A DNA stretch of 64,000 nt from Thunnus maccoyii (lineage: Eukaryota > Chordata > Actinopteri > Scombriformes > Scombridae), in contig NC_056550.1 in NCBI RefSeq assembly GCF_910596095.1, positions 17,826,501 through 17,890,500 of the forward strand, read 5' to 3'. Of the stretch, positions 13,965-59,475 are shown in pieces. Under the pieces are notes generated by a model. The model saw only the letters and a program-made list of their open reading frames with translations, was not told where the DNA came from and did no database searches. Every line of letters begins with the position of its first letter. Position 1 is the stretch's first letter. The position numbers and the translations under genes are program-made.

Positions 13965-14255
13965 CATCATTTTAATGTTTGCAGTTATCGTATGCAGGCA
14001 AGTGCATCTCTGACAGCCTCCAAAGGGGCTTTACTGATGCATCTCAGGATTTCTATATCTGACTCTGAGCTTTGTATGCGCCATCTCCACTTGAACCAAC
14101 CACAAGTAAGCCCACCCATTTCGCTTTTTCACACCGTCTGTCACACTGTCTCTTCTGTTCATCTCTGTGGCCCCATTGAAGCGACGCTCTTTGACAACTT
14201 CTAGAGGATATTTCCACACTAATTCATTTTCAATTACAGAAAGAGGACTGTTGAT
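13965..14255 (+). promoter_or_regulatory. 5'UTR of TNFSF14-like copy 3 with predicted intron and uORF
   Basis: CAA|GTAAGC at 14105/14106 and ATTACAG|AAAG at 14239/14240 define a 134-nt 5'UTR intron. After splicing, an ATG at 14076 opens a 14-codon frame (MRHLHLNQPQKEDC) that stops at 14252-14254, one nucleotide before the main ATG at 14256. The ATGCGCC context is weak to moderate. The intron and uORF are predictions from sequence only. Confidence 0.5.
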
Positions 14256-16785: not shown

Positions 16786-17345
16786 ATATCATATTAATAT
16801 TTCACCAGGAATTCTAAAAACCGGAGTAAGTGTAAATAAAATCAGATAAGAAATCATATAGCATACTTTTTTGAGGACTAATGGTTCTCTTTGTAATGAA
16901 AAGGCAGATTCACAACCAATTTGGAGTGAAAACCTGGAAGTGTTAAGAGGGTCAGGACTGCTGACTTTTCAATTTGTATATTATGTTTGACAGTGTAACA
17001 AAATCCATTTTTTACATCACAGACTTTTTATATGCTACCTTATATACTCACCTTACACTTAATATTTTGTATATTACGAAATGACACAACATAGATGGAT
17101 ATTTTGAAGATAACTTTTATATACACTGCTTAGTTAGATCTTCATATGCATCATGTTCATGTTAAAATTTTTAAAAAACATACAAGCTGTATCCTTATAT
17201 ATTTCTTCTCATTCTTTCTGTAACATGTACTGTACACTATTTATTTATGTGTGAATAATACAATTGCTTTTAATTCTGCTGTCTATGTGCAATAATGCAC
17301 GCAAAAGAATGAAATAAACAGCTAATGATTTAGATGTGGTTGTTG
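16786..17345 (+). terminator. 3'UTR and poly(A) signal of TNFSF14-like copy 3
   Basis: AATAAA lies at 17313-17318 and is followed by the GT-rich run TGTGGTTGTTGTTTGTTGG (17335-17353). Homology with the copy 2 downstream region continues past the signal to about 17530 (8065 in copy 2). That marks the right edge of the duplicated unit. Confidence 0.7.
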
Positions 17346-17530
17346 TTTGTTGGTTTTCTCAAGTGAAATGAAATTCTCTATGCACTTCCTGCTGCATCAA
17401 GCAAGACCACACTGGAGACTTTGCAGAGTGGTCTCAGTAGCAATAGCAGCGAATGTTTCACCCCCTCACTGCAACCACACGACACACACAGTAGAGAAGG
17501 TAATTTTTAAATACCGCAATGACACATAGC

Positions 17531-18052
17531 AATAAATCGTTGATATGTCAACCACCTATGTTGATGCTGTAATACTGGCCTCAAAGTACAGTACATCAGT
17601 TTAACTTTTACCACAAATGAGCTTCTCTTGAGGGTTTGGAAGGACAGCATGTGTAATATGTTTATTCCGCACATTCACATTGGCATACATATTTGCTGTG
17701 ATGCCATACTGTACGTGTAGATGATCATTATCAATCCATCACCATGGTGACAAGCATGCTAACATGACCTATATAAGTAAAAAAAACCGTATCACGTTTT
17801 TTTTTTCTTTTTTGTTTCTCTGATGCAATAATTGTTACGCTTTCCCTTCATCTGAGTCTATTCGAAGAAGCAGCTCTTGAAAACACCCACAGAGTTGTAT
17901 ATTTGTAAACTGAGGAGGAAGTGGTAGTGGGTTAAGCTGGGGTGGGGGGGGGGAGGAGGGGGAGTGTCAGCAACAGATTGCCTGACTCACTTTCCAACCC
18001 CAGACCCGGAGAGCAGTGGCTGGTGAAAACTGCACTTTAACAGGACTGGATT

Positions 18053-36200: not shown

Positions 36201-39200
36201 TGATCCCTTAAGAAGTCAATGTTCCTACTGTTATCCTGAGTGTTTGTGCCTTAATGGAGAATCTGTCCATTACATCCCTGTCAGTGTAGCACAATATTGA
36301 TTATTGAGAGAGCACTGACCATATTGTGAAATCTGATGAGAACAGATGAGGGGGTTGGTAATAGATGGGATGAAAAGCAAAAAGATCTTTACAGGATATG
36401 CCACAAAACTGACCTGATTTACATAAAAATCAGCTTATCTTATGGTAGAGTAAATGTTAAATGCTGTAGTTTATGTTGCAACAGTTGAGGACGCTATACA
36501 TGTTTTCCTTGTCGTATAATGAGAACCTCCAGTGATTTTACAGCCAGTAAATTTAAACATCATCCTCCAATCATTGGTCAATATGTTACCATGAAGTATA
36601 ACTTTGAATCTTAAAATTACTATGATGCTTTGATTACAATGCATACTACACACAAACTCTCTCTCTCACACATGCACACCAGGAGTTATGTCAAGTCAGC
36701 AGGCTGAGCCCGCTGGATGTCGGATGTTTTTTTTTCTTTCAGTTAAAATGTATTCAAAATGCAGCGTATTGCATTACAAGCCAGTGAAAAAAAATCACAC
36801 CCACTGAATTTGAACCAGAGATGAACCAGACCATATCTCATCAGGATACTTTCCAGGTCTCCACCAAGGTATAATACACACAGATAAGGGGATTATGATT
36901 GGCAGATTAAGAGATGAGTGTTCATTTTATGCAGGTAGCAGGAAGGAACCATGCAGGAAACCCTTATACAGGATATTTCTTTTTAAAATAACAAGAAAAA
37001 AAATGTGTGACGAAGTTCTGAATCTGAACGAGTGAACTATTGAAGTATTGAGTCTAATATAGGGAGTTGTGAATGAGTGAATGAAGGACAGATTTTGGAC
37101 CAAGTACAATTATCTGACTGTATAAACTGATGCAAACAAATCAGATTGATTTTAAGTCATCAGTTTTCTGTGGTATTTCTGTCCTTATAGACATTAAGAC
37201 AATGTTTGAATGTAATGCAGGCCAACTCAACACCCACACCACTAACTATGGCTGCAACATAGTGTCCAGGAAATCATACAATATAAGATTCAGTAAAAGA
37301 TTTAACTACACAATTAATATCAGAGCTATTTCATTGGATTACATTAGATGATACAGGTGTATCTAATAAACTGGTAACACATAGTAATAACTCAATAGTT
37401 TGAGTAGATTCAACTGCCAATTGTTGTAAAAGCAGTAATCCTAACCACGAGAACTCCAAACGAATGGGTCTCTTATCATAAATTCTTGCATGGTAGATAG
37501 CACCTGAATGTGTTTGGTACATCAGTGCGTGACAGTGTGTACACGCAGGCTGAAATTAGCATTATTTGCGTTGGTTGCACGTGAGACGAGGACCTGTATA
37601 CGTGGCGACTGAATGACCTGAGTGAGAGATCAGGGTCAGATGAGAGGTGTTTCCTATCTCTCACTCTCTCTTTGTTGACGTCACACCCTCTGCTATCTGC
37701 CTGCAACGTGTTTCCCTTGTCTCTTTCCCCCTCCACTTCCTCACTCTGGCCTCTCTTGGAATATATGGAAGCGGGCCGACTTTTATCTGTATTTTGTCTT
37801 TCTGTTAGGGCAGCATGACTTTGACTACAGAGGTCACCAACACACAATTTTAACACACACTTCTAATCCAGTTTGGTTGACCACGCCTGGCTATATCTCA
37901 GCTATAGTCAGACACGAGTTATCTCGTCATGTGTTTTCTGTGCTGATAGCCTTAAACCTATAGATTATTACCCTGGTTTATCAGTTCAGTGATGCTGAAT
38001 GAGCAGTATTTGTGTGTTAGAAGTAGACTGGATGTCTGTGATAGCTAACACACTGAATAATGGCTAAAAGTGAAACAATGCTAATGTGGAAAAATCTCAT
38101 AGAGGTCATAGTTGCATACTTTTGGCCAGGTATTCACGTCCCACCCTTAGTCACTTATAAATTGATTTAGCATGCTTAAAGACTTGTTTGCGTGTCATTG
38201 TTTGTGGTTTTAAATGTGTATTTGGCCGGATTTTGAGAGTGTATCCTGTGTACTACTCAGTCACGTAGTCCAAGAGATTCCCTGGCAGGAACAGTGTTTT
38301 GGCCTGGGTGCGTGCCAGCTAACCAGCAAGCCTGGGATGACAGAGAGAGGCACAGAGGTTAATGATTAGTCCCATGTTCTTGCTGCATTCCATGGGGTGA
38401 CAAGAGGACATGGGATAAGGGACAGAGAACTGAAGCAGGCCAGGCAGGCTTTTACCGGGCAATCGGCCATTAGTTTGAAGTACAACATAGAATAAAACTG
38501 TGCAGCTCAGCCTTCGTTTTGGGGGATAAAAACCCTCCATCTCCCTTTTTGGTATCGTTAAAATGTTGTGCAACTTTTCACCAATAAACTTTGACCGTCA
38601 GACTGTGAAGTTTGTTTGCTTAAGTGGGCTAGACCATGACCCCCTTTTCACCTGATACAGTAATCTTGCGATTAGTGACCAGCCAGGAAACGTAGTCAAC
38701 ACATAATATTAACAATTGTTAATGTAAGATTAGATGGATTCAATAAAAGTCCCTGCTATTCACCGGAACAAGCAGTCATTGTTAAACAATACCTTGTTCT
38801 TCTTACAGTGGGTTTATTGTCTTCTTTTGGCACATAAAAACTCTCTGTGTAACATGCTGTTTAATATCCTCTCCCTCCTTCCTCATCTTAATTCTTCACT
38901 ATCATTCCCATCTCCCTGTCTGTCTATCATGCCTGTCTGTCTGTCTGTCTCTCTCTATCTCCTTGTCTCCCATCTCTCCTTCTCCCCACTCCTCCAGTGG
39001 AAGCAGCTATGAGTGGAATGCTTGATCCCCCGGGAATCTGGAATTCATGTCACCAAATAACTGAGACTCTTTAAAGCGGCCCCCCTCTTCATGTTGCATC
39101 CTATGCCATTCTCCTGTGTGACAGGAGAAGGCAATCTTTATATGAGCCGACTGTAACAATTATCTCTGTATGTTGCTCTCTCCGTCTCTCTCTCTCTCTG

Positions 39201-40135
39201 TCTGTGATCCTTGTTGCAGAGACCACATGCTCACAGACATTCATCAAGCCATCTTTTGTTTTTTGTCTGCCTCCCCTCCCTTTCTTTGCCCCATCTCATC
39301 AGCTTCCATCCCATTCTTTGCGTGTGAGTTGAAGGCAGTGACGCCGTACAGGCGAGGATTCTTCTGTGGAGACTCCAGTATTACCTATCCCTACGTGGAG
39401 AGAGAGGCCATCCCAGACAGCCTGCTCATTGCTGGTGGCATAGCCATCACTGGCCTTACAGTAAGACAATGATACCTGTTAAGAATTGGCCCAGGGCGTT
39501 GAAGTTGTCATCACTTTAATATGATGTAATAGAGCATGTGTTTGTTTTAAGAATAACACACACATACTGTCACCGTCCCTGTATTTGTGCAGCTGTTTTG
39601 AACGACTTAACCAGTTTCTCTTGTCTTATTTCCTTCTTAGATTGCACTGGGTGAATGTTACCGGGTGCGTTTCCGAGGTGTACACTCACGGGCATTTGTT
39701 CGCAACCGCTATGTGTCATGTCTGTACAAGGAGCTGGGAAGCTTCCTGTTTGGTTGCTGCGTAGGTCAATCTCTCACTAATATGGCAAAGCTAAGCGTGG
39801 GGCGCCTGCGACCCAACTTCCTGTCTGTCTGTAACATCACCTATGCGTCCATCAACTGCACTCCGGGCAGCTATGTGTCCCAGGTCACCTGCAGGCAGCA
39901 CAACCAGAAGATGGTGGAGGAGGCGAGGTATGTAGTGTGTGTGCATGCAAGTTTGTGTTAAGACATGATTTGCCTTGTTTACTAAGGGCGGGTATACACT
40001 AACTTTACTCTACAGTTAATATCTAACCTTCGGCATCTTTTATTGATATCTTTCAGGAAGTCCTTTTTCTCTGGCCATGCTTCCTTTGCCATGTACACCA
40101 TGCTCTATTTGGCAGTAAGTCACCTCTGCTTTATC

Positions 40136-40211
<76 letters not shown>

Positions 40212-42353
40212 CACACCATCACATCTGGAATGTGACCCTCACATTCACCTGAGCTTATGTTGTGTAATTACAGTATTTTGTACTGTGCAGCAATGTTGGG
40301 GGAATATTGCAGCTCTCACTTTAGTTTTAGTTATTAAAAACAACATGATCCTTCCTCCCTAGAGGCCAAGAACACCATGTGCAACTATTAACTAGATAAG
40401 CTAATTAAACATGCCAAACACACACCAAGACATGTGCTGGTAAATATATTCACACATTGTGATCGTGAGGGAGGAGAGCTTTGAGAGCAGCAAATTCTCC
40501 AAAGGCATCCTGCTTCAAATTGAAAGGGTTGGTGAGACAGAGAGAGAGGAGGAGGAGGGGAGGGGGAGGTAGAGGGGTGGTGGGGGGGGGGGGAGTAAGA
40601 GAAGGAGGGGGAATGTTTTCCACAGGGGAACATGAATAGATGAAGAGACAACACGGACAGAGGAGGCCTTGTTGTGGGTCTCATTTAGGGGAGGGGGTAG
40701 AGGGCTGAATATGCCTGCTGAGAGATCGACAGGCTTCTTTCAGCAAGAGACACCCCTCTCAACCCCCCCAGCACTCCCCCATCTCTTCATCTTTCTCTCA
40801 CACTGCACTGCCCAGTAGTCATGGGCGCATTGTGAGAGAGAAACAACAGTTAGAGCGAGACAAAAGCACATTATTATCCTTAAAATGTGCACATTCCACG
40901 CGTATTCCTCCTCGTTAACCCTTAAATTATAGTTTTATGTGACTCATTTATTGTGTACAGCTAAAATGAATGAAATGTGAGAAATAAGAGAGAGGAGAAA
41001 AGAAAATCACTGCCTCTCCTATTTGCACTTTTGCACTATAGAAGTCCAAATGAAAAGCAGCTCCTCTCTGACCAGAAAGACAAGGATGAGTAGGGGGAAA
41101 AAAGTACTAACGAGAAGAAGTGGTCTGAGAAAAACAAGGACTTCAGTGTATGTTATCCCTGATTTCTCTCCTCACTCCTTTGTTTCTCCAAACACAGACT
41201 ACAGGCACAAACACAGCCTTGCATGCAAGTTCGCTGCTTGCTAGTTTTTTCAGCAGACTGTAGACAACCTGGAGAGAATGTGTCAAACCTGTAGCTACAT
41301 GCCACCCGAACCATAGCCAGCTGCTAGTGTTTAAGGCGGGAAGAGTGACACCTGCTCTCAGCTGGGATAGGGAGAGGGAGAGAGGGACCCGGTGAGAGGT
41401 CGGCCTCACCACAGGAATGTAGGCCACATGCTCCCCAGTGGTTGATGGGCCCAGACGGACGTCCAACCACCTCATAAAGCTAGCCCTGCATCTGCATCAC
41501 ACTCGCCCTGTGACCCATTTTTTACAGACTCAAACATCAATATTGTAATGTAGCGCTGAACCAGGAGACGAGGATGAACAAAGGGAGGAAATGGGGTTTA
41601 GATGGTGTTAATGGACTCATGCCAAGCTTCTCTTTCCCCTCTGGGTAGCAGAGTGTATGCCTATGTTTTGCATAATGGGCTCTGCCTGTGTTCATAGAAT
41701 TTGTATTATAGGTAATAATTATCGGTTTATGTTTTTGGCACACACGTTAACACACAAGCAGCCATATGTATATATTCACCCCTCTGCATAGGTTATAAAG
41801 TGAGTAAAAATATGATATTAAAACTAGCTTCTTTTTCACAGTTCTACCTGCAGGCACGGTTGTCGTGGCGAGGAGCTCGACTGTTACGCCCACTCATACA
41901 GTTCCTATTAGTGATGATCGCCATCTACACCGGCCTGAGCCGCATCTCTGACTACCGTCACCACCCAACTGATGTCCTCACAGGCTTCATCCAAGGAGGG
42001 CTCACTGCATACTGGGTGGTATGTTGAAAATGACTAAACTTGTCTAAATAGTTCTTTAATGACAGTTATCTCTGTCTTTACAGGATTTGTTTCTCTCTCC
42101 TCTCTGTTGACTGAATTAGCTTAAACAATAGACTCTCTCACCACTTTCCTTACCCGGATCTCTTGTGGTGTGTATAAACAGTAAATGATTGGCAGCGTGC
42201 GTGATCTGTGTATATTTCCTGACATTGGTTTTGCATCTGTGCCTGCAGGCCTTCTACATCTCCTCAATGTTTAAGCCATGTGCCCGTCCAGACCTGTCTC
42301 CCACTAACATGTCCCTGGAGAGTCCACTGTCCAGCCAACAAACTGTCTGTTAG
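27290..42353 (+). CDS. plpp3-like: PLPP3-like lipid phosphate phosphatase, 330 aa
   Basis: Six coding exons join in phase: 27290-27497, 39303-39460, 39641-39927, 40057-40114, 41842-42018 and 42249-42353 (993 nt). LPP-family enzymes are six-pass membrane phosphatases that dephosphorylate lysophosphatidate, phosphatidate, sphingosine-1-phosphate and ceramide-1-phosphate on the outer face. All three catalytic motifs are intact: KLSVGRLRP (172-180), SGH with nucleophile-assisting His225, and [12 protein letters not shown] with Arg271, His277 and Asp281. Two sequons (NIT 187, NCT 194) lie in the large luminal loop. The phrases [18 protein letters not shown] and [13 protein letters not shown] fit PLPP3 better than PLPP1 or PLPP2. 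So does the long N-terminal tail of about 57 residues. The RGD present in the loop of human PLPP3 is replaced by CRQHNQK. A fourth, fish-specific LPP paralogue is a real alternative. Confidence 0.9.
27498..39302 (+). other. Intron 1 of the PLPP3-like gene (11.8 kb)
   Basis: The intron is flanked by GTC G|GTAAGA and CTCATCAG|CTTCC. It holds a (GA)n tract (27721-27766) and a G-rich block (27880-27940). Otherwise it is unremarkable non-coding sequence with a few repeat-like pieces; I see no nested gene. First introns of this size often carry enhancers, but none can be pinpointed from sequence alone. Confidence 0.8.
27721..27766. repeat. (GA)n purine tract
   Basis: An almost pure GA repeat about 220 nt into PLPP3-like intron 1. 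Confidence 0.9.
40137..40207. repeat. (AC)n microsatellite next to a splice donor
   Basis: About 35 uninterrupted AC units begin roughly 22 nt after the exon 4 donor (GTAAGT at 40115) of the PLPP3-like gene. Confidence 0.95.
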
Positions 42354-43815
42354 CAGGCACATGCAATCAGAAGACAAGTGAACATGGACTGCAGAAAGAC
42401 AGGGCGAATGTCAGATAGCACAGGTGAGGAGCAGAGAGAAGAGAGAAAGAGAAAGGGAATCATATAAAAGAAGGATATGATTAAAAGTTGATGGAGTACA
42501 ATCTAACACATGCTTGCTCTTTTGAGCATACTGATACACAAACATAGATTCACACAGTAATCTAACAACTTCACACTCTCACATATGTGAAATACAAGAA
42601 GCACATTTGACTGCAAGTCAAACCCGTCCAGTGAAAAGAACTGCATAGTATATTACAGATATTTTTTTATATATGAAAAAAAATAAAAATGTCTATTTTT
42701 CAAGAGGACTTTTAGAAGCTGCTAATGTTGATAGTTGCCAGTTGTTTCTTCTGTGATGGAGGCCTTTGGTCAGTGCATTCAGTTAGCTTTCAAAGCACAA
42801 CTGGTCACTCTTTGGTCCTTTTGTGAGGGAGGAGAAAATGCCAGCCTCCTCTTTTTTTTTTTTTTTTGATCTCCTGCTCAGCTTGGAAACATCACACAGC
42901 AGCTGTGAACTGATGCCATCAGACCTCAGACATAAACACAGCTCTGTACCGAGTGACAGACCTGGTAGTGATAAGGAACAAGCACTGGCTTTAACTTCTA
43001 ACCATCTTTACCTTCAGTGGCTTGATGTGCCGCTGCTCTAATCAGACTACCCTGCCTACGATCACTACGATTTAACAATCATCTGTACATAAGCAAAGAA
43101 AAAAAACAGTATTTGTGCTGTAAAACAATGTTGTCTTTCTTTATTTTTTTGAGTAACCAAGGCAGTGTCGGGGAGAAATCTGACCAGGTAACTATCTTTC
43201 CCCTTCACTGCCGCTTTTCTGTACTAACCACTTTGACTGTGTCTCAGAGGTGGAGGTTTGACTGAATTTTTGTAACCTTTGACTTTTGTCTCTGAGCTGC
43301 ACCTTGATTTATGCCACTCTGACAGGAGAGCCCTCCTGTGCGTCTTTATTAATAGCACTTGAACGTACATAATGGAACCTTCTAATTATAATCAATATTA
43401 TATATTTTATCACAAGTTTGAATAATCAGTGTTTATTTTTGTTAATGTCAGACTCATACACTATATTTGTTTTTGTTGTTTTCTTCTTGAAATGATAATT
43501 ATTCAAATTGAATGTAAATAGCAATGTCATTTTATAAACCACACAGAATTTCAAAAGTATTAGTTCCAGTTTTGGACAGTTTTTACATGTTTATGTAATT
43601 GTTTATATTTACGTTTGTATTGATCAGGTACGGAAAGTTACTATTGTATCTGTTGTAACTACTAGACTGAGCCACAGATATTATCAGAAAGCTATATTTT
43701 TTGTGTTCCCAGTTATTGTTGTTTGTTTATTTTGTCTGTGAATGCCAGAAAAGGCAGAAATAACCACTGTACTCAAAAAAACCAAACCAATAAAATGAAT
43801 GTTGAATGTTTTTAA
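42354..43815 (+). terminator. 3'UTR and poly(A) signal of the PLPP3-like gene
   Basis: The AATAAA at about 43789-43794 is followed by a T/GT-rich stretch (GTTGAATGTTTTTAATTTC). It lies about 1.4 kb after the stop, a plausible 3'UTR length. The intervening DNA is AT-rich with poly(T) and no open frame of note. Confidence 0.65.
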
Positions 43816-44363
43816 TTTCTTATGTCCTCTATTATTTCTACCTTGTATCAGAAAAACTGAAAAAGCCATCTACCGCAGTCCCTTTCATGCTTGCCAGGCA
43901 CACACACATACTTAATCTCTATGTCACAATATTTATGTCAGCCATTTGTAAGTCAGTCAGCATACAGCCATTAATTTTTTACAAACAGGATGCCAGATGC
44001 TGCGAGGAGGTAAGGAAATCTGAGCTGAAACAAAATATAAACACTGAAATGATAAGTGATTTAACCTCCTGTTGTGTTTGGAAGCTTCCACTCCAGTGCT
44101 CTCCTAGTTTCTTTCATTACTACAGCTCTCTCTCTCTCTCTCCCCCCTTCACACCCTTCCTCGCTTTGCCCCTTCCCTGCTCTCAGTTCTTTTGGAGTGC
44201 AGTGGAGCATGATGGACTGTTTTAGGGGGTCATGCTACCATGGAGATGCTTAGCCAGATACAGATTGGGGCGTCTGAGGCATTTTCTTTCATTTCTTTTT
44301 TTTCTCTCTCCGATCCACTTCCAGGCCGAGGAAGGAGAATAAAAGGCAGCCCAGATCAGAGAG

Positions 44364-44401
44364 AGAGAGGGTTAAAGAGAGAGAGAGAGAGAGAGAGAGA
44401 A
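44364..44401. repeat. (GA)n tract
   Basis: A GA-rich run with a few interruptions. Confidence 0.9.
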
Positions 44402-47400
44402 GGAGGGAAAGCGACAGTAATGGGTGTGTACATAATGCTGAGGTAAGGGGGACAGACGAGCAGGAAAAGTGGTCCAGTAATGAAGGGAAGGAGTAATGGA
44501 GCAGTTGGCAGAACAGATGGGGCGGTAGATCGGGGAGAGTGAGGGTGATGGGCGTGGGGCTTCGATGTGGGAAGGAATGTGATGGTGGTTTTCAGGCCTG
44601 TTTTGTTTCATAATACTGTAACTAAGGAGACACATTTCATTCCTGAGCAACGTATATGCCTGTGCTTGTGTGACAGGTTCTTGTCTATCTGTGTCGGCTT
44701 CACTATTTGTTATTGTCTTATGTTTAGGTGTGTGTGACTGAGCTGAGCGGGAGTTAGGCTGCTCCAGTGAGCTGAGCTTACACACCCTGTCAAACATGAC
44801 ATCTCGTTTACACTGTGACTGGCGTCCTCCTCGCTAACCCTTTTGCCCTAATGGAAGTGAATGGGGGTCGACAAGCAGAGGCAGATTCTGTATGTTCAGA
44901 TTATTAAGGTCTAGGCAGAAGGGCCTCACTATTTACACTTCTGTGATTGTGCACACAGAAGGAACAGTAGCCCAGCACTACGGTCATTTAGAATGGGGGG
45001 TATTCAAACTCTTATCTTAACAGGTGAAAGCCATTACTGTCCACACGCTTGACTGTGAAAGAAAACTAAACCCACTTTCTCCCTCTTCCTCATACTTAGC
45101 TTTGGGGATTTCCTTGATAAGATTATGATTTTTGTGAAATTGGACAGGTGCAAAAATAGCACAGTGTACTCCAGGGAGCATTGATTCAAATCAACACACA
45201 GATAAGTGTGCTGCAGCAAGCACGTAGCTCACCTGTGTATCTTCACGTCTGAGGAGAGGACACCTGTATAATGCATGTTTTTTGTCAGACATTGATAACA
45301 TCATCAAGGCATTTGCAGCCCAGCCGGATTCCATTTACTTAACTTTGCCCCCGTTGTGATGAAATAGTCTTTTTGATGGAGATGTAAAACATACCTCCTC
45401 CTACAGTCCTCACGTAATTCAACCTGTCTTTGTTTAAAAGCAACTGAAAGCTGCTTAAGGCTGTAAAGCGATTCAACTGTGAAGAGGAAAAAGAAATTTC
45501 CTTGCATATGAATTTTTAAGTAAGACTTTTTCGCTGTGGGTCTCCGAGGCATTACAGACATAGTCTCTGGAACTCTGCTGGCCTCTTATCCAGCTGTAGT
45601 CCAATTCTTAATAGAATTAAAAAGGATTAATGGGCTCTTTAGTATGCTCGAGTTCAGACCTGCTCCCCCGGCCTCACTGCTATGCATATTTCTAAATCTC
45701 CCATAGTAATGACAGTCAATGAAAGCAGTAGCTGCAGCCTTTAGCACTGCGAGTGGGCACATTGTGTCCCGATATGAGTCTGTGAAAGGCATTAGTGTGT
45801 GTGTTCCTGGTTAGATAAATCTCGCTCCCCCTGTCTTCTCTCTCTGCTCTTCAGGGATTAGGATGTGCCAAGCCACGTTGGCTCATGGTGTAAGTTAGAA
45901 ACGTCCCTAAAATGGATCTACAAAGAACTACAGGTGGATAGCAGGACCACAGTCACTGCCAAATATGGGAACCTTGCGTAGGCGTGTGATGTTCGTGCAT
46001 TTTCTCACATACACAACAGTAAATCACTTGCATACCGAATTTATCACTCTAAGACATACGTATGTACACATAGATAGTACACATACTATCTGATGAGGAC
46101 AGTGTCATTATGCTATCTGATGGGGATAATATCGCTTGAATTGAGGCTTTGTTATGTGCTGCACCACATGCGATGTGCAGGTAGCTGAGGCTGGATATGA
46201 AGGGTTTTTGAAGCTTATATTAATTGTTAATGAAATGTGGAGAGAGATCAGTCAGTGAATGAACATGTATTTGAGGATGATAAAAACAACAAACTTCCCT
46301 GGAAGAGTAATTCTCAGCAATATCTCTGTTCTGAATCAATTGAAAGAAACAAAAGGCACACAATTTTCTAAGGATGTTGTTTTCTGCTCTTTAAGAGAGC
46401 AATTTTATCTGACTGCTCAGGAACATTTCATTGGCAGACAAACTATTTAAATTATATGTTTTAAAACAACAAGTTTTGCTGAAGATCTTTTCTCACTAGC
46501 TGGTCATGAAATGCAGCACATGGAGCAGAAAACCTAAGCCACTATTTACAATTTTGGAGGTCATATTATTGTCTTCACAAGGGTGATGAGGTGTTACGAA
46601 AGTACAATACAATGGAAAGGTTACCTGATAAGACCTGGCGCCATAATGTGTGGTGTGTTTATTCTAGTGTCAAGCTGAATGTTTTAGGGTAGGGTGACCT
46701 TAGCTACCTGCAGCTTCTCTTTGTCGGAGACGAGGTGCTCTCTCTCTGTCTCCTGTAAAAAAAAAAAAATCCAGAGGTAAACATGTTTAAATAGTGTTTC
46801 CAGACACAAGGGTAACACTAACAGGTAAGGATTTCACTCACAATCATAACAACTGAATTAAACTTTGACTTTCTTCAATAAAACAAGCTTATCTACGAGG
46901 ACCTAGACAAGACATGTCGATAGAGATACCAAACCACTATGTTTATACTATGCGGTCTGAGAGATGTGGAGTGTGTATACGTGTGTGTGTGTGCGTGTTG
47001 GTGTTTGTTCCATAACCTGCAGGCTGCTGAAGGCAGACTGGAATGCAAAAACAAGAACCTTGGAATAAAACCAATAGCTAGGATCCATGAGGTGTCACAG
47101 ATGACTGCGGTGGAGAGGTGGGAGGACAACGCTAGGTTCCAAGGTCAGCAAGCTAAGCCTCCCTCAGCACAAACATTCACATGTAGTGGTAATTTAAGTC
47201 TGACGTGACACTTGTGTTAATACAAGCAGGGGAATCATAAAAACAGCCCGTTCATCACTTAAGCAAATTACAGTGAACGTCATGCAGTTGGATATATGCA
47301 ACTGACCTCAGTGCACTCTAAGGCTGCGAGAGGATGATCTAATAACAGATATGTCTTGAGAAAACAGTTCTGAGATTAGCAGTGTGTATGAAACAGTGAT

Positions 47401-47569
47401 ATAACATATGATATCTGTGTTTTTTTACCCAGTAGACTCGATATTTAGTCCTGTACATGTATGTGAGCAGAGCACATACAGAACCTGTATTGTGTTTACA
47501 CCTCTGTGTGTGTATATGAGATGTCCTTAACGCCATTAATCACACTTATCCTTACACATACCATCATAA

Positions 47570-47799
47570 TCTCACATATACAACACTAAACTCTCCCCCA
47601 CATACTATCATACTCTCCTACATATACCATTTTAACCTGTATTAGAATATACTGTACAGAGAAAGAGTAGCGTATGAGAAATATTGATGTGGTTTATAAG
47701 AGAGGATTATTGTGTGTGTGAATGAGATTGCATATGCACATTACATGATGTCTAAGAGAGAGAATGATAGTTTTTGTGAGATATGTGAATTAGTATAAT

Positions 47800-47845
<46 letters not shown>

Positions 47846-48470
47846 ACAGAATGAGTGTGTGTGTTCTAAAAATGGTGTTATGTGAAATACAATATCAGTG
47901 TGTGTGTGTGTGTGTAAGTATGTGTGTGTGTCTATGAGGAAGTGGGATATTCTATGTGACAAAGAGAAATTGAGTGTGTGAAAGGTGACAACAGTGAGTG
48001 TAGGAAAGAATAGTAGCATGAGTGAGAGAGCTTTATTGTTTGTGTATGTGGGTGTGTGTGACATGCTGTGAGGGAGAGAGTGATTGTGTGTGTGTGTGTG
48101 TCAGTGTGTGTGAGAGAAACTGAATGCATGTGGTGCAAAACTGCTGCGAGTGTTTAATTAAAAAGGAAGGCAGTTTGATTGAATGAGTGGGTAAATTCTC
48201 AGCTCCTGAGAGGCTGAAGTCTCATAGGCAACAATGTGCATACAAATCAAGTTACAGGGTGTTTAAGGACAGCTTAAAATTCACCTTTTTTTTTTTTTTT
48301 TTTGCTAAAATGTTAGCAAGTTAGCTATTATTTTCCAGATTATTTAGCTTCATTAAGTTATATAATTTACATTCAGTCAATCAAACTCTCACATACACAC
48401 CTACTCTCATTTACATATACTATTATCATCTCTTAAATGCAGGAATATAATGCAAAAGAATATACTGTAG
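47570..48470. repeat. TG/CA-rich degenerate repeat domain
   Basis: A pure (GT)n array (47801-47839) lies among shorter TG arrays. Two similar blocks flank it, about 47570-47665 and 48375-48475. Both contain CTCACATA, ACTCTC, ATATAC and AGAATATACTGTA. The similar blocks suggest an old local duplication with microsatellite growth between its copies. Confidence 0.5.
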
Positions 48471-51400
48471 TTGTATGTGAGCAGTATATGATTGTGCGTG
48501 CAAGAGTTTGCAGCCGTGCGTGTGGGACTGTACAGTGGTCTACTGTATGTGCGAGACCATGATGCAGTGCGTGTCTGTGATAGCGAGGATGGTGCTATCA
48601 GTGCAGAGCTGCTCCTAATTAAAGTCCTCCCTAGGAACCAGCTGGAATAACAGGGAGAATTGAAAAACCTGAGGTGCTGAGGTCACACTTACAACACCGC
48701 AGTACATCAGAGAGCCAATGAAACGTGCTTGTCGGAGCTTAGGATAGTGTTAAATGCAGTGCAGGCCTCTCTCCATGCTCCTGTGTGTGTGTATGTGTGT
48801 ATGCATGCAAGCCTTTCATCTACCCCCTCTGAGCATGTAAGTGTGATGATAGCTTAGCGGCAATAGTTTAATGAGTATGCACACAGTAGACACCCGGCAA
48901 TATTCCTGTAATTCCTAGTAATGATTGAGGTGAGCTTGTGAGTAATTCATGTGTGTAATGCTGATACACTAACATATTTTGCAAAGGAGAGTTTGTTAAA
49001 TTGGCAAACAGAGGGCAGTAAGTACATCAGAGAAAGTAGCAGATATTATGTTTAATAACAGTAATAACTTTTTAAAGCAGTTGACCGCGCTTGTCTTTTC
49101 CTACTGTTTTATTTGCCTTTTAGTGTCTTTTAAAATAAATAGACTTTTTCCTGTTGCTTTTGGGCATTTTGTGGACTACAACAGCTTTTGCGATGGATTG
49201 TTTACAGTCATTTTGTGTAATTGTTGAACAATGTCGCGGCTGCTGGCTACTATTGTTATTAGTGTGAACCTTCGAGGGGGTGAGTTATGGTTGCCTCTGT
49301 CCTGTAATTATGTTTCTCCTTCCCCTCGGACAGATGATGACAACAGTGGAAAAGCCTGTGAAGGAAACCTCCTGTTGGAAGATGTAGAATGATGGCGGTG
49401 ACAGGAAGACAATCCCAGGCCTGGAACCACAGAGGCACCTACCTGTCTAGACGCTGAACAGCTGGCTTCGGCTTGAGCTAGCACACTGCAAAAAGCTTCA
49501 CGAGTCAGTAATCTTGTCTCAAAAAAATAAAAAAAAAATTTATGTGGTTGAACAACTTGTTTACAGTGCTAATCAGATTTTTTAAATCACTGTTACTGGT
49601 AATCAGTTGTGAGATCAGCCTTACATCAAACAAAATAAAACTGGAGACACAATAGGCCTTTTCAAAGCAGACATTTTGACTTGTTGTAGCTGGAAAAGCA
49701 CAAGTGTTACTGAAAACATTAAAGACGGCTCCATCCTATTCAAGTGTCTAAGTGAGTCATGAAAGTGTGACAGTGAGCCAGCAATACCAGGACCTTGAAA
49801 GGGGTGAAATGGAGATCATCCATCATTCATTTTATCATTTACATCTCTGGTTTTCCTACTGTGTGATGTCAAAAAGTCTTCCATGAAAAAGGTGTGCGGG
49901 CCTTCCCCACTTTGATTTGTCATAGCAAGAAACTCATAGGTGGATATCCCTAAAGACAGCTTCAGTCGGTTTGAGTGTCCCAATACAACACATTTGTTCA
50001 TTATTTTTAATGAAACCAAGTTTTTAAACGTGTTCAGACATACTTTTTTTCTTTTTTTTACAGTGTGCTGTGCTTCTTCTCTTTCCTCCGCTCACCTCTC
50101 TGAGATTTTTCAGGTGAGTGCCCGATCGCCCCACTGATCCGCAGCACAGCCAAACACAAGGCTTTGTTTGTATAACAATAGGGCTCAGCCAAGTGTGAAC
50201 CGCTACAGAAGGGCTGTCTTAACAAGACATGACAGTGATAGACATACTGACTTAAACTGACATTTCATGAGCTGCAGCAACTCCCATTTACAAATCCATG
50301 TCCCCTACAACTCCTGTCATGTCAGTCATAGCTTCAGGAGTCTGGGATTCTGCTGTGATTGAAAGGAAACAACCTATAAACGAAATTAACCAAATGGGTA
50401 ATTTGATGTGAATTTTTTGCATACTTTCTCATGAGCACACCAGGTGCACAGTACATGCTAGTGCTTGTACTTGTTTGTGTGACAGAGAAAATGGTTGCGT
50501 GTGTGAGTTGAGTTGAGTTGTATTGTATGTGTGTGTGTGTGTGTGTGCTTGCTGTGTGTATATTTATGTGTGAAGCAACAGAAATAACAGAGGGCACGGT
50601 ATAAAAAAATCCTGATTGTTTCTGAGGGATTATCCTTCACAATGCAGGGCTTTATCAGTAGGCCTGGACTGCTGTAACAAGACACGCTCACCCTGGGTTC
50701 ACCCAGCCAAATACTGAAACTTGCGCCAGCTACGAATCACAGAGGGGGGGAAAGAAATGAAGAGAGTAAAGAAAAGAAACACGGAGGAAAATGACGGTGG
50801 AGGAGAGCAAAGAGCAGAGAAAAGGAGTAAGAGATGACAGGGGGAAGAAAAGTGGAGTGAAAGGGGAAAGTGGGAGAGAAAACAGAATAAGGAGAGTGAA
50901 ATATACAGAGAACAGTTGAACAAGTTTAACTGGAGGCCATGCTTCAAAGAGAGAAGTTTGTTTTCTGTCAGAGATCCCTCTCAGGAGATTGAGCTGGAAA
51001 ACAGATTAATAGAGCCTGTCCAAGTTGCTCTCTGATATTGCGCAACATGTGCCTCAACACCATATGAACAAGAGCTGCTGTGCATCTTACTATGCAGTGC
51101 TTCAACGTTGATATTTGTCTTTTATAGCCTAATGTACATGATGCAGCCTCACCAAGCCTTCATATTCAAACACTGACAGGCCCTCAGGCAGGGGTTGGTC
51201 TGTTAGCTAACATCTTTCAGATCGTTCATGTTTGGCTCGGTGGTGGAGAGGTGCTCCTGATTGGATCATTTTATTTGCTTCTTTTTATTATACTTTCTCA
51301 GCAGGCTCAAGTTGCCGTGCCCAGGCTAACCAAGCTCTGTAAAGGGGAGATGTGGTTTTGGAAACGATAGGGAGAGTTGGCTGACTATGGAAGGGGCTTT

Positions 51401-54400
51401 AATATGTGTATAGGAGGTGTAGGTGGGGTGGGGGTGCTCATGATATTGTGTGAGGCCCTGTGACTTCATATATTTGTATATTCCCATTATACCTCCACTG
51501 CAAGCACTAATGAAAAATATTCTTTCAGGCTTGCTAATTTACTTTTATTAGCTGCTCATTTTTTGGTATGTCCGTTTCATAATGTAACCACATAGCATGA
51601 CTGAATGTATTGCTGAATGTGGTTACGGCGTTCATATTTCTCTGTATGCATTTTTGTCAGCGTGAGTTGCTGTTGGTATGCTTCCTGTGCTGGCAGTGTG
51701 TAGATGTCCCTCTGTGATATCCAACCTGTGCCAGTGGGGGTTTCAGACTTCATACTGAGCGGACAGACCAAAGAGTCTGTAACAGTCCCAGCACGATTTG
51801 CCGTTCTCTCAACTCACCTCTTCTTTGGTGTTGCACTCAGAATGAGGGATTATGCTTATTACCATTTTACTTGAAAGCACCCCTGGTGACTCAATGCTTT
51901 TCCGAGCCACGGATTCAATCACTGCTACGGTTTGGGTTCAGGGAAATGCCATTTAAAGGCCTATGCTGTTGCTCTCTGTTTGCATAATATAACTTGGAAA
52001 TGCATGTATTCTCTACAGAAACTACTCAGCGTCAAGGTGTGAACACGATACTGTTTTCTTAAAACGAGTCATTCATGGTCTGTATGTGAAGTTTTGGTTT
52101 GGTTGCGGTCGGCTTTATGTCGGGTGTATTTTGAAACCATTGTGGAGCAATGCAAACTCAAGCCAAGCAGGGTACTAAGCAGCCAGCACTATTGTTTCAG
52201 AGCTACTCAGGATTCTTGGGGTGTTGCTTTGCCTCAGCTTTGACTCCACAACTCACACACCCCGAATGGTGCACCCATTTTTTTTTTTAAAAACTTGGGT
52301 TCATAACAGTGATCTGCATAAACTTTATGGAGGTTCATAAAAAGATTCTTTTAAATACCAGACTGTGCAAAACTGTTTACCTTTCAAACCCTCCAAGTAT
52401 CCCCATCCAGATGGACAGAGAATGAGGAAATGGACTTTAAGATGTGAAGAAAGCTATTTATCTCTCGTCGCCACCCTTATAAGCAGAACAAAAAGGAAAC
52501 AGTTAGGACAGATGGGAGGGAGACCCAAAAGCAGCAGAATTGTAATTATTTACCCTAAAAGTCCTGTTTAGACTGTTTGTTTCTACATTCAGATTACATA
52601 ACTAGACACAGTGTTTGTGGGAGTGTAGGCTGTGGGACATGTATGTTCTTAGCTTTGTGTGTGTTTTCAGCCTGTCCTGCGTCACTGCTGCTCTCCTCTG
52701 TTTATGTAGGGGCTCTGTGAATATGGAGAGGGATGGAAGAATATCCAAACCTCCCACTGTCACTTGATATCTATGGAAAATGGATCAGATGATTGGAGGA
52801 GTCCACTTCCACATTTCGTCCCCCACATGAGAGCTGAACCAAGTCCACTCACTCTCTCTCATTCATGCCTGTCGTCATGCTGTCATCAGTATTTACTAGC
52901 CAAGGAATGATGAAGTGTTATAAAATGATGCAATGTTAAACTGGTTAGTCACACCAAATTGGCCAATAAGTGAATCCGGTCGGCTGAAGTCTCACTTTAT
53001 CTATTTTAATATCTAAGTCACTGTAATAATCATGTTTAAGGTGAAAACTTCAGTGTATGTTTTGGAAGCACATATTTGCTCGACTACGCTGGAGTATCGG
53101 CCATGTGAGAGAGACAGGGAAGGGCAAAGGAGAAGCAGAGAGATGGAGGAAGGGAAGTAGATGAAGTTGAAGAGATAGAGAGGGGCCCATATTAAGTGAC
53201 ACAGACTATAGTCTGTTTTTTCTCAGTGGACCAGAGAAGATGCAGTGTAAATGAAGCGTACTGCACCATGGCGGCTTCTGCTTTATCTTTGTAGTTTGTG
53301 TCTGTGAGAGAGAGAAAAGGAAATGACAGAGGCCTCTCTGTTCACACTCTTTTCTCTCATTTTAGAATATGTTTGGAGGACTGCCATCCTCTTCCTACAA
53401 TCCATCTCAAAAGATAACAGGAAGATATATGCAACACAAATGTGTGCATGCATGCATCTGCCCGAGTGGTAAAAATATCCTGTCAAAGTATAGGCAGAGC
53501 TCTGTCAGAATCCATACTGCACGGCAAGACTATGCTTATCTAATGACACATCTGCATATTTTTCAGGTAGCTTTTTGGTACCGTGGCATTTGTAAGAAGA
53601 TTGTTGTCATCTCACATTTTGCTTTTCTCCAGAATGAAATTTAAAGCCCTGTGGTGATTTTGTGTCTCCTCCCAATAGGGCTGTCTTTTCACTGTGTGTC
53701 TCTGACCTGTAGGACAAGGGCCTCCCCTTGTGTTAAGTGTACAAAACTACATTTGGCATGTGGACAACCAACGGGTTAAATACTTGAAAAATTAATTAAT
53801 CTCTCGGGATAACTTGGCACAAAACCCGTGCACTGTCCCAGATAACTTACATTTAAGAAATGAGCGATGCAGGGGGGTTTGGGTGAGATTGCCTGTGACG
53901 TTATGGGCCAGCCAAAGACCTGGTGTTGTAGGGGAGGAAGAAAACAATGTGATGTAATTTTTTTTTTTTTTTTTTCTGAAAGGGAAGATGTTATAGTTTT
54001 GGGAGTGGCTTGAGGAAAACAGGGAAATGAACAGACTGCAACAGAGGCGTAGCAGAGACATAATCATAGAAACAGATGGAATTACATTGATTGAATAAAA
54101 GGTTACAAAGAGAAGGGGGAAGGGTGTTGAAGGGTTTGGTAATGCATAGCAGTATATCTGTATAGGTCTGTGTCTGGAGTTATTGTACTGCTATAAAATC
54201 AAGAAAATAGATAATTATAGCACACGTTTCCCACACTCTATATAAAGTATATTAGTTTAATATGAATGAGGAAAAAAAAAAAACTCTCCAAACTACTATA
54301 AACAACATTTTTGTAGCCCAAATGAAGGCAAACATCCTGGCACTTGGATTCGGAGATGACATATTTCCATTTCCTCTTTTTTTCTGTTCCTTGTTTTCTT

Positions 54401-54442
54401 TGACCTTAGCTCAGAAGCCGCAGTCTCTTTGTTCTCTGTCTG

Positions 54443-56675
54443 ATGATTGACAAAATGATTAAAATATGTCTACTTGCTACCATGATTATGCAATCCTGTT
54501 ACGGCAAAACAACAGGTAAGAGATAGAGAACAGTGAATATGTATTTCTGTCCAGTTTTTCCAGTTTTTCCATTATATTCTTTACTTCCGCTACTAGAGAG
54601 CTAACCAAGAGCTAATCAAAGTCTGCTCTGCATGTTTGTAATGTCGGTTATGTTGTTCCAGATGTTTGTAAAGAGCCTGATTTTTTTTTATACTTTACCA
54701 TTGTCTCACAGAATGTCACCAGAAAAACATTTCCTGTCCTGACATCAAGATAACGGAGGGCTTCAAGTTCGCATTTGCGTTCCCTGGGGGAAGAGAGATT
54801 TCTGAGATTTCTGTGTATGACAACGAGGTATTTTGATTTGCTTTCGAGCTCTGAAGTATTCCACAGTTCTGTTGGCAAAGGTTTTATTGGTCCTTTAATA
54901 CGTGTGTGTGAGAGAAAAAGGGAAGAGAAAGTGAAAGTAAGTTTCACATTAACAATAACTCACTCAGTGTTTTGTTTGGTTCCTCTTCTATTTTATTATT
55001 TTTGAACAGACTCTGATTGCTCATGCTGCGCCAAGAAAACAACAGTGTGACCATCTGCCTGATGTTGTGAGCATGGACAATGGTTCAGTTGTTACAAGAC
55101 ACTGCAGAGACCTAAGAGTACAGTGCATAGTTTTCGATGTGAGTTCTCTACTTTTATATGTACTTATGTGAATTTAATCCATAAAAGTCAAATGGGTTTA
55201 TTTAGATTTTCACTAGCAAGGACCACACCTTCAATGAGATGCGTTTGGATGATTTATTGAGGAAAACAATTAATGCGCATAGTTCTTCCGGTTGCTGACT
55301 GCGTTGTGGTGAAGCTTACGGGGAATCACGAAGGAGAGGAAGAATCATGAAGAAACACGAAGAGAGAAATAGGGTGGGAGGGAAGGGCGCAGAATACGAG
55401 AGCGGAAGAAGCAGATAGGGTTAGGTGGTATTTATAGGAAAGCCGGAAGTGGCGTAATTGAGGTGTGGTCCTGCTCCTGAAAATTCGCTGAATAGCTTCA
55501 ATATGTGAAATATGCACTCTAGGATATCACAATATAGACTTTTCTTTTTGCTTTCCAAGGGGCAACATGTAGCCGAATACTGTATGGAATATGACACTAC
55601 TGGTAAGGCGGTGAGATGGTGTAGATAACTGATTTACTATTGACTCTCATCTTACACTGCTGATCATATATACAAAATATATACAATTATCTCACCTCTT
55701 TACTTCAGCAGAGAAAACGAAGACTTCTGATTTGCAAACACCATGGGGCCTCAACAGTGAGTGACATTATCTGTGTCAGTGTCTCACATTTTTGTTGGGA
55801 ATAATATAAATTATATTTCTGGAAAGAAAATCAAATTAAACTTTGATAACATATAATCATTGTGTCTGTTGTTCAGTTGGTGTATCAGTTGCTGTGCTGT
55901 GTGCTGTACTGCTCATTGTGGTGCTTTGGTGGTGTTTCAAAAAGTGAGTTTTATTCAATTTTCACAGTTACTATTAATGTAATTTACACATTTACTTACA
56001 CAGTGTCTTGCATGGATTCAGAAATATGTGTTTGTTGCTTGTTTCATGTTAGAAAGCAGAACTGTGTGGCCTCACTTCTTGGATTTTTTAGACACCTACT
56101 AAGCTGCTCTTGCCACGGAGGAGGAGTTTCCCAGGCAGAGAGGGGAGAAAGAGAAGAAAATGGGTCAGTTTTACTTTTAACATACAATATGTTTCATGTT
56201 TCATTTGAGCACACATACATGCACTAAGATACAATTAGTTAAATCCTCTTCATTGCATATTCCTATTATAAAGTCATTCAGTCTACCAATGACTTTTTAC
56301 ATAAAAATTTGACATTTTTAAAAACTCAAAATTCAACAAGTGGAACATTTCAACTGAATATTTTAACACATTTATGTTTAGATGTCCCTTTAAGACACAA
56401 TGAAGGAAGTGAAAGCCAGAAGGGCACAGCTGATGCTTTGGAGATTCAACACAATGGCGAAATTGAGTCAGCGCATATTCAGAAGCTACTTTCAGATCCG
56501 TGAATTTCTATTAAACTTGCATATGATTATGTTGTCGTTATAGGCTGAGTGAAATACCCTCTGACACTGATCAACATGGAAATAGTGGAAACAATATTGA
56601 TGCAGATAAACTTGAAAGTGTGCACGTTGTGCGCTTTATCCACACTGACCTCTTATTAGCCTTTATGTCAAAGTG

Positions 56676-56722
<47 letters not shown>

Positions 56723-58396
56723 AAGAAGAATAGGAAGTCTAGACTGTAATCTGCTAAAGCTACATTTGTCTCCACAGAAATGATTCAACAGCCAATGGAA
56801 GGACTCCTCAAACCCTTAGTCTGGACCACAGCTTGAACGACGTGGGAATCGAGCTAACTAAAAAGTGAGAATGAGAATTGCTTACTTTTCTGTGGAGATT
56901 AAGGTGAAGTCTCCCTTTATTTAACTGGTAGTGACTGAAATGTCTCAGAGGAGATTCTGTACCATTCTTATCAAGTATTTGTTTTGCAGCGGAGACTTGA
57001 GTGCCCCTGATGTTAACAGAGCCTCTAATCATCGAACCATGAACAGGTTTGCCTTTGGGATTTGATGGGTTGTCAGTGTGTTATTGTCAATTCTTTTTGT
57101 CTTTTATTCCATCAACACTATTTAACAACTTCTTACTATGTCTGCCTCAGGAATGTGAGGGATGATCCAGGAGGAGTGAATGACACCAGAGGACAGTTCA
57201 CTGTGCGGTAAGTCTTTAGTCGAACAATTAAGATAATTGTAGATATTATACTGTAACAGAGTTACAGAGAATTATTACCATCCTGCATTACATAAACAGC
57301 TCTTTTGAGAGTTGTTAGGGTGTATGATGAGAATGTGTTGAAGATGATTATAAGATTATGTTTTTGAGTTTCATCTGTCTGCCTCCTTGAGGTTAATCAA
57401 TTCGTATGAGTAGTACAGTGTAAAAACAGGTATTATTAATTGTATCTTATGAAATACTGTCATTTCACTGCAACCCACAGGTTATGTTCGCTTTGTAGAA
57501 TAGAATAGAATAGAATAGAATAGAAAACTAGAAAGTGGAGATATAGCCCACCATAAACAAAACAGAAATAAGTGCTACATTTTTATATACTCTAGCCAAG
57601 AAATAAAATTATTCCTGTCCTAAATATTTGAGTTAAAGGGTTAACAAAAACCCAGTTGTTATCCTGGTAAATCAATCAGATGACTAAAGCTTGATCACTT
57701 GCACTGAAATACTCATCTTAAGGCTCTTTTACGCCCACTGAGTAAACTGATAAAGGCTGTAATTTTTTTCTCCAGGAGCAGTGAAAGGCACGAATCACAG
57801 GATCATGTGAATGAAGGACAACCGCTGCTGCCAAATGAGCGGTGAGACTGTCATTTTGTACTTATGACTATGCCCAAAGAGAAATCTGTGTCACTCTCCA
57901 GTTTCCAGTCTTCTTCATTCCTGGTGTCATTTGGCCTGTTGCTGCTGTTTGGACAGCTGTTGGGAGTAACTTTCTGAACTGCCCCCACCGTCCCACCCCA
58001 CTGTCCAACCCCCCCCCCCCATATCAGAAGTCAGAACTTCACAATACGTCTGACGCCTGCTTGGAAAGTGAGAATAAACCAAACTTTGCTGTTACTGTGC
58101 AGAGGCTCATGTCTCTATTCCTTGTTGTTTCTGTCTCCAGAGCTGCCGTCCAAGATTTTGACATGACAGCCGTAGCTTTGGTGAACAAACACGGCTTTCA
58201 CCCAGACCAGGTCAGCAGGTGCTCTACCGTGCTAGTAAGTAGGAAGCTTTCTATAAATGCTATATTATTGGGGTTTTTCCTGATGAAATGCTCTTTTTCT
58301 TTTGGTTTTGTTTGAATTTGCACATTTTGTTTTCTGCAGGACACTGACGTGGAGTCAATGTCATCCAACATGAAGAACCATAATATACATAAATAA
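54443..58396 (+). CDS. Unrecognised type I membrane protein, 14 exons, 369 aa
   Basis: Fourteen exons join in one frame: 54443-54515, 54712-54827, 55010-55138, 55560-55602, 55709-55756, 55877-55943, 56053-56163, 56395-56499, 56778-56864, 56990-57046, 57151-57207, 57776-57841, 58141-58234, 58340-58396 (1110 nt). A signal peptide (about 1-20) precedes an ectodomain of about 110 residues. That ectodomain has six cysteines (26, 33, 76, 95, 102, 114) and three sequons (NIS, NET, NGS). The transmembrane segment is 137-157, followed by KKK. The 210-residue tail has no tyrosine, so no ITIM or ITAM. It has a CSC pair near the membrane and an acidic dileucine signal EGQPLL (311-316). Exons 8-12 are all phase 2 at both ends. 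The ectodomain could be a diverged Ig-like or receptor module, but I do not recognise the family. Every junction was chosen by GT/AG and frame. Exon 8 has the weakest borders (CTTTAAG acceptor, GTGAAT donor). Confidence 0.7.
55218..55472. mobile_element. MITE-like element in intron 3
   Basis: The left end reads AGGACCACACCTTCAAT and the right end, reverse-complemented, reads AGGACCACACCTCAAT. These short inverted repeats enclose about 255 bp with no coding capacity. The element lies between exons 3 and 4 of the unrecognised membrane-protein gene. Confidence 0.6.
56510..56515 (+). terminator. ATTAAA signal just after an intronic stop
   Basis: If the exon 8 donor (GTGAAT at 56500) is not used, the frame stops at TGA 56501-56503. 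An ATTAAA signal follows seven nucleotides later. This could end a short isoform that lacks most of the tail. Confidence 0.35.
56672..56720. repeat. (GT)n microsatellite before exon 9
   Basis: About 24 GT units with one GC interruption end 57 nt before the exon 9 start (56778). On the transcript this is a UG repeat. Confidence 0.95.
57496..57525. repeat. (TAGAA)n pentanucleotide repeat
   Basis: About six units of TAGAA lie in intron 11 of the membrane-protein gene. Confidence 0.9.
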
Positions 58397-59475
58397 ATAA
58401 ATGTATAATAATAAATAATGATAATGATAATAATAACAACAATAATAATAATAATAATAATAATAATGACAATAATAATAAGAATATATTATTTATATAT
58501 CTCTTTATATATATCTCACAATCAGGGTCTCTGGCTCTGACTCTGTACAGGAATGGGGTACTTTTACTGGCAATCCTTTGGCATTGAGTCCAGCAACTTT
58601 TGTTTGAAACATCATTTTCACACCACAATGCTTTTCTGCCTTGCGGTGCACGCTTTAAGAAAGATCAGACAATTCCCAGGGAAAGCAGTGCTGTGTGTTG
58701 CTTTCACCCTATTCATTGATATATGATTCATTGGTACATTACCTGACATTTAACACATTATAGGGTCGACAGGTGAAATGGAAATCACTGCTCTTATTAT
58801 AAGAATAATTTGAGCTTCGTTCCCACGTATATAAAATGCTTGGATTGGCAAATCTGGCAGATTTTTGGGTGAATCAAAAAATCTGCCAGAAAAAGAACCT
58901 CATACCTCAAACATAGCTGTGAGATTAATATTATTGTACCTATATAACAGAATTGTCACCATTGTAATATCTATAGTATGAGTCTATTACAAACTAAATA
59001 GATGTTTATTATATGTTTATTATATACAATACACTATATTATACCTTATTAAATATATATATATGATCACTACATCATTACATTATACACTTGTCCTTTC
59101 CTTTTTGAATACATTATGTATGATTTCTTTTTTTTTTTTTTGATTTTTACACTGATCAGCTGTAAATAAACCTGCTTTTACCCTATTATCGCTGCATAGT
59201 CTAGCATCATGTTTATAGTTATCACCTGAATCATAGCACCTTTTTTTATTGGATGCTTAAGTGTTATTCTGTATTAGCCACAGTGTTTTATTTTCACTCT
59301 GCATTTGTGAATCTTAGCGTGATTCTGCATTAATCATTTATTTTTTAAGTGCTTTGTTGCATTGCTTTTCTTTTTAAGGGTTAATTGAATCAAATATAGT
59401 AATAACAATGATAGATATATTAGAAAATGATAAATTCATCTCATGTATTTTGAAATAAAATGTTTACTCCATCCA
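58397..59475 (+). terminator. 3'UTR and poly(A) signal of the membrane-protein gene
   Basis: The stop codon overlaps the start of an AAT/ATA-rich microsatellite (58390-58470). The best poly(A) signal is AATAAA at about 59454-59459, followed by T-rich sequence. Confidence 0.5.
58403..58475. repeat. (AAT)n-rich microsatellite
   Basis: An imperfect AAT/AATG repeat immediately follows the stop codon and would sit in the 3'UTR. Confidence 0.9.

Follow-up and report, generated by a model that had tools for sequence, protein, structure and literature searches.

The plus strand of the 64,000-nucleotide window from Thunnus maccoyii analysed here likely carries, at 54443–58396, a real gene for a small cell-surface receptor, which adjoins PLPP2 and a group of immune-signalling genes. 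Its predicted protein matched no known family in the libraries compared, and it is best described as a likely receptor gene without an assigned family rather than as a proven new kind of receptor.

The original prediction had placed a gene of 14 exons at exactly these coordinates and on this strand, and both proved correct: the exons join without a break into one frame of 369 codons plus a stop codon, and all 13 introns are bounded by GT-AG. Exon 1 (54443–54515) encodes the likely signal peptide with a possible cleavage site after CYG (residue 21) and contains two in-frame ATGs, 54443 and 54455, the second of which we take to be the better start by the Kozak rule, having an A at -3. On the same strand, TATAAA at 54241–54246 precedes the first ATG by about 200 bp and represents, by the TATA consensus, a weak promoter candidate; the same word also starts at 54192 and 54297. 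The ectodomain is spread over exon 2 (54712–54827; Cys26, Cys33, sequons N30 and N62), exon 3 (55010–55138; Cys76, Cys95, Cys102, sequon N87), and exon 4 (55560–55602; Cys114), followed by the stalk in exon 5 (55709–55756), the transmembrane helix in exon 6 (55877–55943), and the juxtamembrane region with the candidate palmitoylation motif CSC (residues 177–179) in exon 7 (56053–56163). The tail extends over exons 8 (56395–56499), 9 (56778–56864), 10 (56990–57046), 11 (57151–57207), 12 (57776–57841), which harbors the acidic dileucine motif EGQPLL, and 13 (58141–58234), up to exon 14 (58340–58396) with the C-terminus and stop codon. Near the gene end, AATAAA or ATTAAA words were detected at 58392, 58410, 59048, 59165, and 59454.

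Splice sites were ranked against all GTs and AGs of the window using an approximate vertebrate splice matrix. By this measure, 12 of the 13 donors were found within the top 0.3–8.3% and 12 of the 13 acceptors within the top 0.8–9.3%. Both exceptions border exon 8, namely the acceptor of intron 7 at 56395 (top 16.4%) and the donor of intron 8 after 56499 (top 44%). Of three starts tried for this exon (56395, 56382, and 56343), only 56395 preserves the frame, while the other two break it. Skipping exon 8 stays in frame and results in a protein of 334 aa. In addition, an open stretch at 56544–56672 on the plus strand, absent from the earlier model and encoding LSEIPSDTDQHGNSGNNIDADKLES..., is a possible additional tail exon: its acceptor (top 7.4%) and its donor (top 6.1%), the latter bordering a GT repeat, are better than the splice sites of exon 8, and if it is inserted after exon 8 and before exon 9, the frame stays open with 412 aa. 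Since exon 8 can be skipped and this stretch also fits the frame, at least three frame-keeping versions of the mid-tail exist. Exons 7–12 all run from phase 2 to phase 2, so skipping any one of them keeps the phase, and exon 3, which is phase 0-0, can likewise be skipped in frame.

Exon 8 could also be read as a mark of degeneration, or of an indel in the assembly, in a gene that is partly broken or wrongly joined: either a receptor in decay or two separate transcription units merged in the model. Its weak borders, the acceptor at 56382 that is off by one base, and a codon choice that does not favor the frame would agree with such a gene. We nevertheless consider this very improbable, given 14 exons without an internal stop, strong splice sites elsewhere, and a frame that stays intact also without exon 8 or with 56544–56672 added.

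For the coding signal of the gene, exons were chained by dynamic programming over splice and codon scores, a scan whose model leaves out first and last exons. On the plus strand of 54301–58500, this revealed an in-frame chain of eight exons with a score of 45.6, compared to 12.8 on the reverse strand. Six exons of the chain (2, 4, 5, 9, 11, and 12) are identical to those of the 14-exon model and two share one border with it, namely exon 7 (same donor, other acceptor) and exon 13 (same acceptor, other donor). Exons 3, 6, 8, and 10 are absent, as are exons 1 and 14 by design; the relaxed scan included exon 6, with exons 3 and 10 missing from its chain as well. None of 200 dinucleotide-preserving shuffles reached 45.6 (mean 6.1, SD 2.7, maximum 13.7). 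As a comparison with real DNA, 29 half-overlapping segments of 4.2 kb over 1–63000 were scored on both strands, and the highest values were obtained for the receptor gene (45.6), a segment with PLPP2 (45.2), a minus-strand TNF-domain gene (40.9), and the second half of the receptor gene (39.3). The best segment without an identified gene scored 32.8 (minus strand, 29401–35700). Real DNA thus gives higher chance scores than shuffles, and the receptor gene leads the best segment left unexplained by 45.6 to 32.8. Chain scores also rise with the length of the stretch, reaching 82.4 for 35000–44500 with PLPP2 and, for 42500–54300, where no gene was identified, 35.3 on the plus and 30.0 on the minus strand. 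In a stricter single-exon scan, no exon of the receptor gene passed. The frame used was strictly best by codon score in five of the 14 exons, with one tie, so that codon choice gives no support; both other frames contain stops in 11 of the 14 exons, and the used frame has none internally, the exons having been chosen as open. Altogether, the receptor gene is very probably coding.

The segment scoring 32.8 derives from an in-frame chain of four exons at 29186–33129 on the minus strand, which was found with this score in two segments and comprised five exons with a score of 33.9 in the relaxed scan. It may be due to chance or represent an unrecognised gene.

Analysis of the deduced protein bore out the type I layout that had been proposed, with a likely signal peptide, a glycosylatable ectodomain with six cysteines, one helix, and a long tail. 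The putative signal peptide was assigned by eye and by an acceptable -3/-1 pair (C19, G21), and is only moderately hydrophobic (best hydropathy 1.25 over 19 residues and 2.24 over 11 residues). The ectodomain comprises about 90–110 residues with cysteines at 26, 33, 76, 95, 102, and 114 and sequons at N30, N62, and N87. A single transmembrane peak (hydropathy of 2.87 over 19 residues from 135) indicates a helix at about 135–158, followed by KKKQNCVASLLGFFRHLLSCSC and then by the polar tail. Tryptophan occurs only at 133 in the stalk and at 154 and 155 in the helix, and none is present in the folded ectodomain.

The tyrosine-free tail with a dileucine motif was likewise confirmed: there is no tyrosine in the 210 residues after the helix, which also lack tryptophan, and EGQPLL is located at 311. 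This stretch matches the pattern [DE]xxxL[LI] and was the sole sorting signal among the tail patterns searched. A second match to [DE]xxxL[LIM] sits in the ectodomain and, being on that side, cannot serve as a sorting signal. Five CK2-type sites, one PxxP, and one PxQxS were also matched in the tail, while ITIM, Yxx-phi, TRAF2 major, TRAF2 minor, TRAF6, WW, 14-3-3, and PDZ-end patterns were all absent from it. Three of the four TRAF patterns are thus missing, and the fourth, PxQx[TS], has one weak match, PDQVS at 341. Both the dileucine pattern and CxC could arise by chance.

The ectodomain, the tail, and the whole protein were compared with Pfam, with matches considered up to E=10 and with HMMER filters that lose most weak matches, and with solved structures. 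In agreement with the original prediction, which had failed to place the protein in a known family, no credible match was found in either, and in the profile search of the ectodomain no family reached its curated cut-off. The Pfam matches below the curated cut-offs, i.e., Syndecan (E 0.021) and DUF347 (0.075) over transmembrane residues and TMEM145_N (0.059) in the ectodomain, were rejected as chance. The same applies to the matches among solved structures, which paired the tail with designed ankyrin proteins (best 0.081) and the ectodomain with KCMF1 (0.33). The tail showed no Pfam family and no death-domain match. NCBIfam, a prokaryote library, gave two sub-threshold matches around the helix and none above cut-off. 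Pattern searches, which detect close relatives only, were run on viral and prokaryote collections, in which fish orthologues would not be sought. Six 8-residue patterns from the ectodomain and helix gave nine stretches in viral contigs, and six patterns from the whole protein gave 43 in prokaryote genomes; none of these was confirmed, as expected of a vertebrate gene. Within the window, no paralogue was found (best non-self match E 0.46), and Rfam and tRNA scans revealed no hits. A search of open-licence PMC literature with a few word choices returned no title or abstract naming such a gene beside PLPP2. Since no homologue was found, exons and motifs stand without support from conservation.

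With regard to the fold of the ectodomain, our leading structural guess is that it is possibly Ig-like. Specifically, we tentatively suggest, at somewhat less than even confidence, a divergent immunoglobulin-superfamily receptor with a V-set-like domain of the CD2/SLAM kind that lacks the usual core disulfide and in which the extra cysteines would pin strands. By eye, the length of about 90 residues fits, and eight candidate strands in V-set order can be traced (IKI, FKFAFAF, EISEISVYD, TLIAHAAP, DVVSM, SVVTRH, LRVQCIVFD, and AEYCMEYD); by the usual pattern of Ig domains, TEGFKFAFAFPGG resembles an A'-B turn and EISVYDNETLIA a C-C' hairpin. With a CD2-like consensus string, z was 1.63, a score that 87 of 1000 shuffles attained. 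However, up to E=10 neither an Ig family in Pfam nor an Ig chain among solved structures was found, and V-set and I-set consensus strings did not stand out from shuffles (scores attained by 413 and 654 of 1000, respectively). Furthermore, the would-be B strand has no cysteine, the folded ectodomain lacks tryptophan, no DxGxYxC is present, and the admittedly crude Chou-Fasman method does not yield eight clean strands. Three exons for one Ig domain are also an unusual layout. Because the Ig-like guess failed these sequence tests, the protein was not filed under the Ig superfamily.

With slightly lower confidence, the protein may instead have diverged from some other known receptor class (TNFR, class I/II cytokine receptor, IL-1R, CUB, or three-finger), and its family would become obvious given fish orthologues. 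Immune receptors that evolve fast often diverge beyond recognisable similarity, and TNF-superfamily ligand genes are among the neighbours. Yet no Pfam family of TNFR, cytokine receptor, IL-1R, CUB, or three-finger type appeared up to E=10. The absence of TNFR repeat spacing, already pointed out in the original prediction, was confirmed by eye, and TNFR_c6 repeats were found in the ectodomain neither with Pfam to E=10 nor with a TNFR consensus string (765 of 1000 shuffles equalled it). Features of class I cytokine receptors are lacking as well: no WSxWS and no paired N-terminal cysteines with C-x-W were found, tryptophan being restricted to the three positions outside the folded ectodomain. Tyrosine motifs of ITIM/ITAM type are not present in the tail. 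A CUB consensus string gave z 2.4, equalled by 26 of 1000 shuffles, as the best of seven tests and from a patch of 22 residues, with no CUB profile in Pfam up to E=10. Together with the CUB and CD2-like strings, the sushi (349), V-set, I-set, fn3 (697), and TNFR consensus strings made up these seven tests (shuffles of 1000 equalling the score in brackets), after which none was convincing.

Upstream of the receptor gene, the window contains PLPP2, a pair of TNFSF14/TNFSF6-like genes, and a diverged gene with a TNF domain. PAP2 was matched by the exons 39641–39927 (E 0.00098, under the cut-off) and 41842–42018 (7.8e-11, above the cut-off) of a gene that we take to be PLPP2. TNF-domain exons on the plus strand are located at 6876–7340 (Pfam TNF, 2.8e-23) and 16342–16785 (1.2e-22). 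The first of them, which alone was compared with the PDB, was closest to a TNFSF13 fusion construct (3.8e-14), followed by TNFSF14 (6e-10), TNFSF6 (6.5e-10), and TRAIL (2.9e-9), so TNFSF14/TNFSF6-like is a likely, not a proven, label for both genes. They lie in tandem and in the same orientation at 2377–8065 and 13967–17536 and share three blocks of 82–84% likeness, about 3 kb in total. Positions 1–394 are 88% like 16744–17147, a region that spans the end of the last exon of the second gene and its downstream flank, so the window may be preceded by another copy. On the minus strand, 21393–21773 encodes a diverged TNF domain (Pfam 1.9e-4, 21.8 bits versus a cut-off of 23) in a gene at 21393–23248, whose exon at 23096–23248 likely encodes the transmembrane segment of a type II protein. 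Its PDB matches were weak (TNFSF13 fusion 0.0011, CD40 ligand 0.039, and BAFF) and included neither TNFSF9 nor TNFSF4, so that an identity as one of these is a guess from its position. Two published studies describe TNFSF14 as adjoining TNFSF9-type genes and as tending to duplicate (PMC7674686, PMC11762692), which fits the layout of the window. This layout and the compact introns point to a fish. For the original suggestion that the gene may encode a fish-specific immune receptor, the TNF-superfamily ligand genes nearby would agree with an immune role but prove none.

With evenly balanced confidence, we propose that this is an intact vertebrate gene whose product spans the membrane once as a type I glycoprotein and most likely serves as an endocytic surface receptor without tyrosine signalling; its ectodomain may be fast-evolving and is possibly Ig-like. 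We infer the receptor role from the layout; an adhesion molecule or a membrane ligand would appear identical. The signal peptide would be cleaved, N30, N62, and N87 would be glycosylated, and the six-cysteine ectodomain would bind a protein ligand. As the motifs suggest, and as the original prediction had held plausible for lipidation and internalisation, palmitoylation near CSC may tether the juxtamembrane region to the lipid bilayer, and EGQPLL may recruit AP-2 for clathrin uptake, so that the protein would cycle between surface and endosome. Working without tyrosine phosphorylation, such a receptor would clear or deliver its ligand, as a scavenger, decoy, or sorting type, rather than fire a kinase cascade.

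Compared to known systems, it shares with CD2/SLAM-type receptors, whose V domain lacks the core disulfide, the type I layout, predicted glycosylation, a compact ectodomain, and by eye the V-set order, but it shows no Ig match in Pfam or PDB, its ectodomain spans three exons, and its tail, having no tyrosine, carries no ITSM/ITIM. With the TNF receptor superfamily, it has in common the type I layout and a cysteine-containing ectodomain, here with TNFSF ligand genes nearby; in contrast, it lacks TNFR_c6, repeat spacing, a death domain, and three of four TRAF patterns, leaving the weak PDQVS. Some members of that superfamily have neither a TRAF-binding motif nor a death domain. Endocytic sorting receptors with [DE]xxxL[LI] tails likewise carry an acidic dileucine in a long polar tail, whereas the ectodomain here matches none known and its uptake is predicted. 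Very improbably in our view, the gene could have founded a receptor family of ray-finned fish whose ectodomain fold is new, linked to the TNFSF14/TNFSF9 block and binding a neighbouring TNF-type or other fast-evolving immune ligand as a tyrosine-independent recycling decoy. If orthologues across fishes and selection on the ectodomain were found, an uncharacterised receptor would join a block of TNF-superfamily ligand genes, while an orthologue in a named family would make it an ordinary annotation gap. The exon model, with the uncertain mid-tail marked, makes the gene directly testable.

Apart from the genes, traces of putative mobile elements were observed in the window. The open stretches 3512–3753 and 5473–5685 resemble, by the motif HGGGSIMVW and a helix-turn-helix-like stretch, a Tc1/mariner transposase. 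Intron 3 of the receptor gene harbors an element at 55219–55472 with perfect inverted ends of 12 bp (AGGACCACACCT and AGGTGTGGTCCT), 230 bp apart, which looks like a small non-autonomous DNA transposon.
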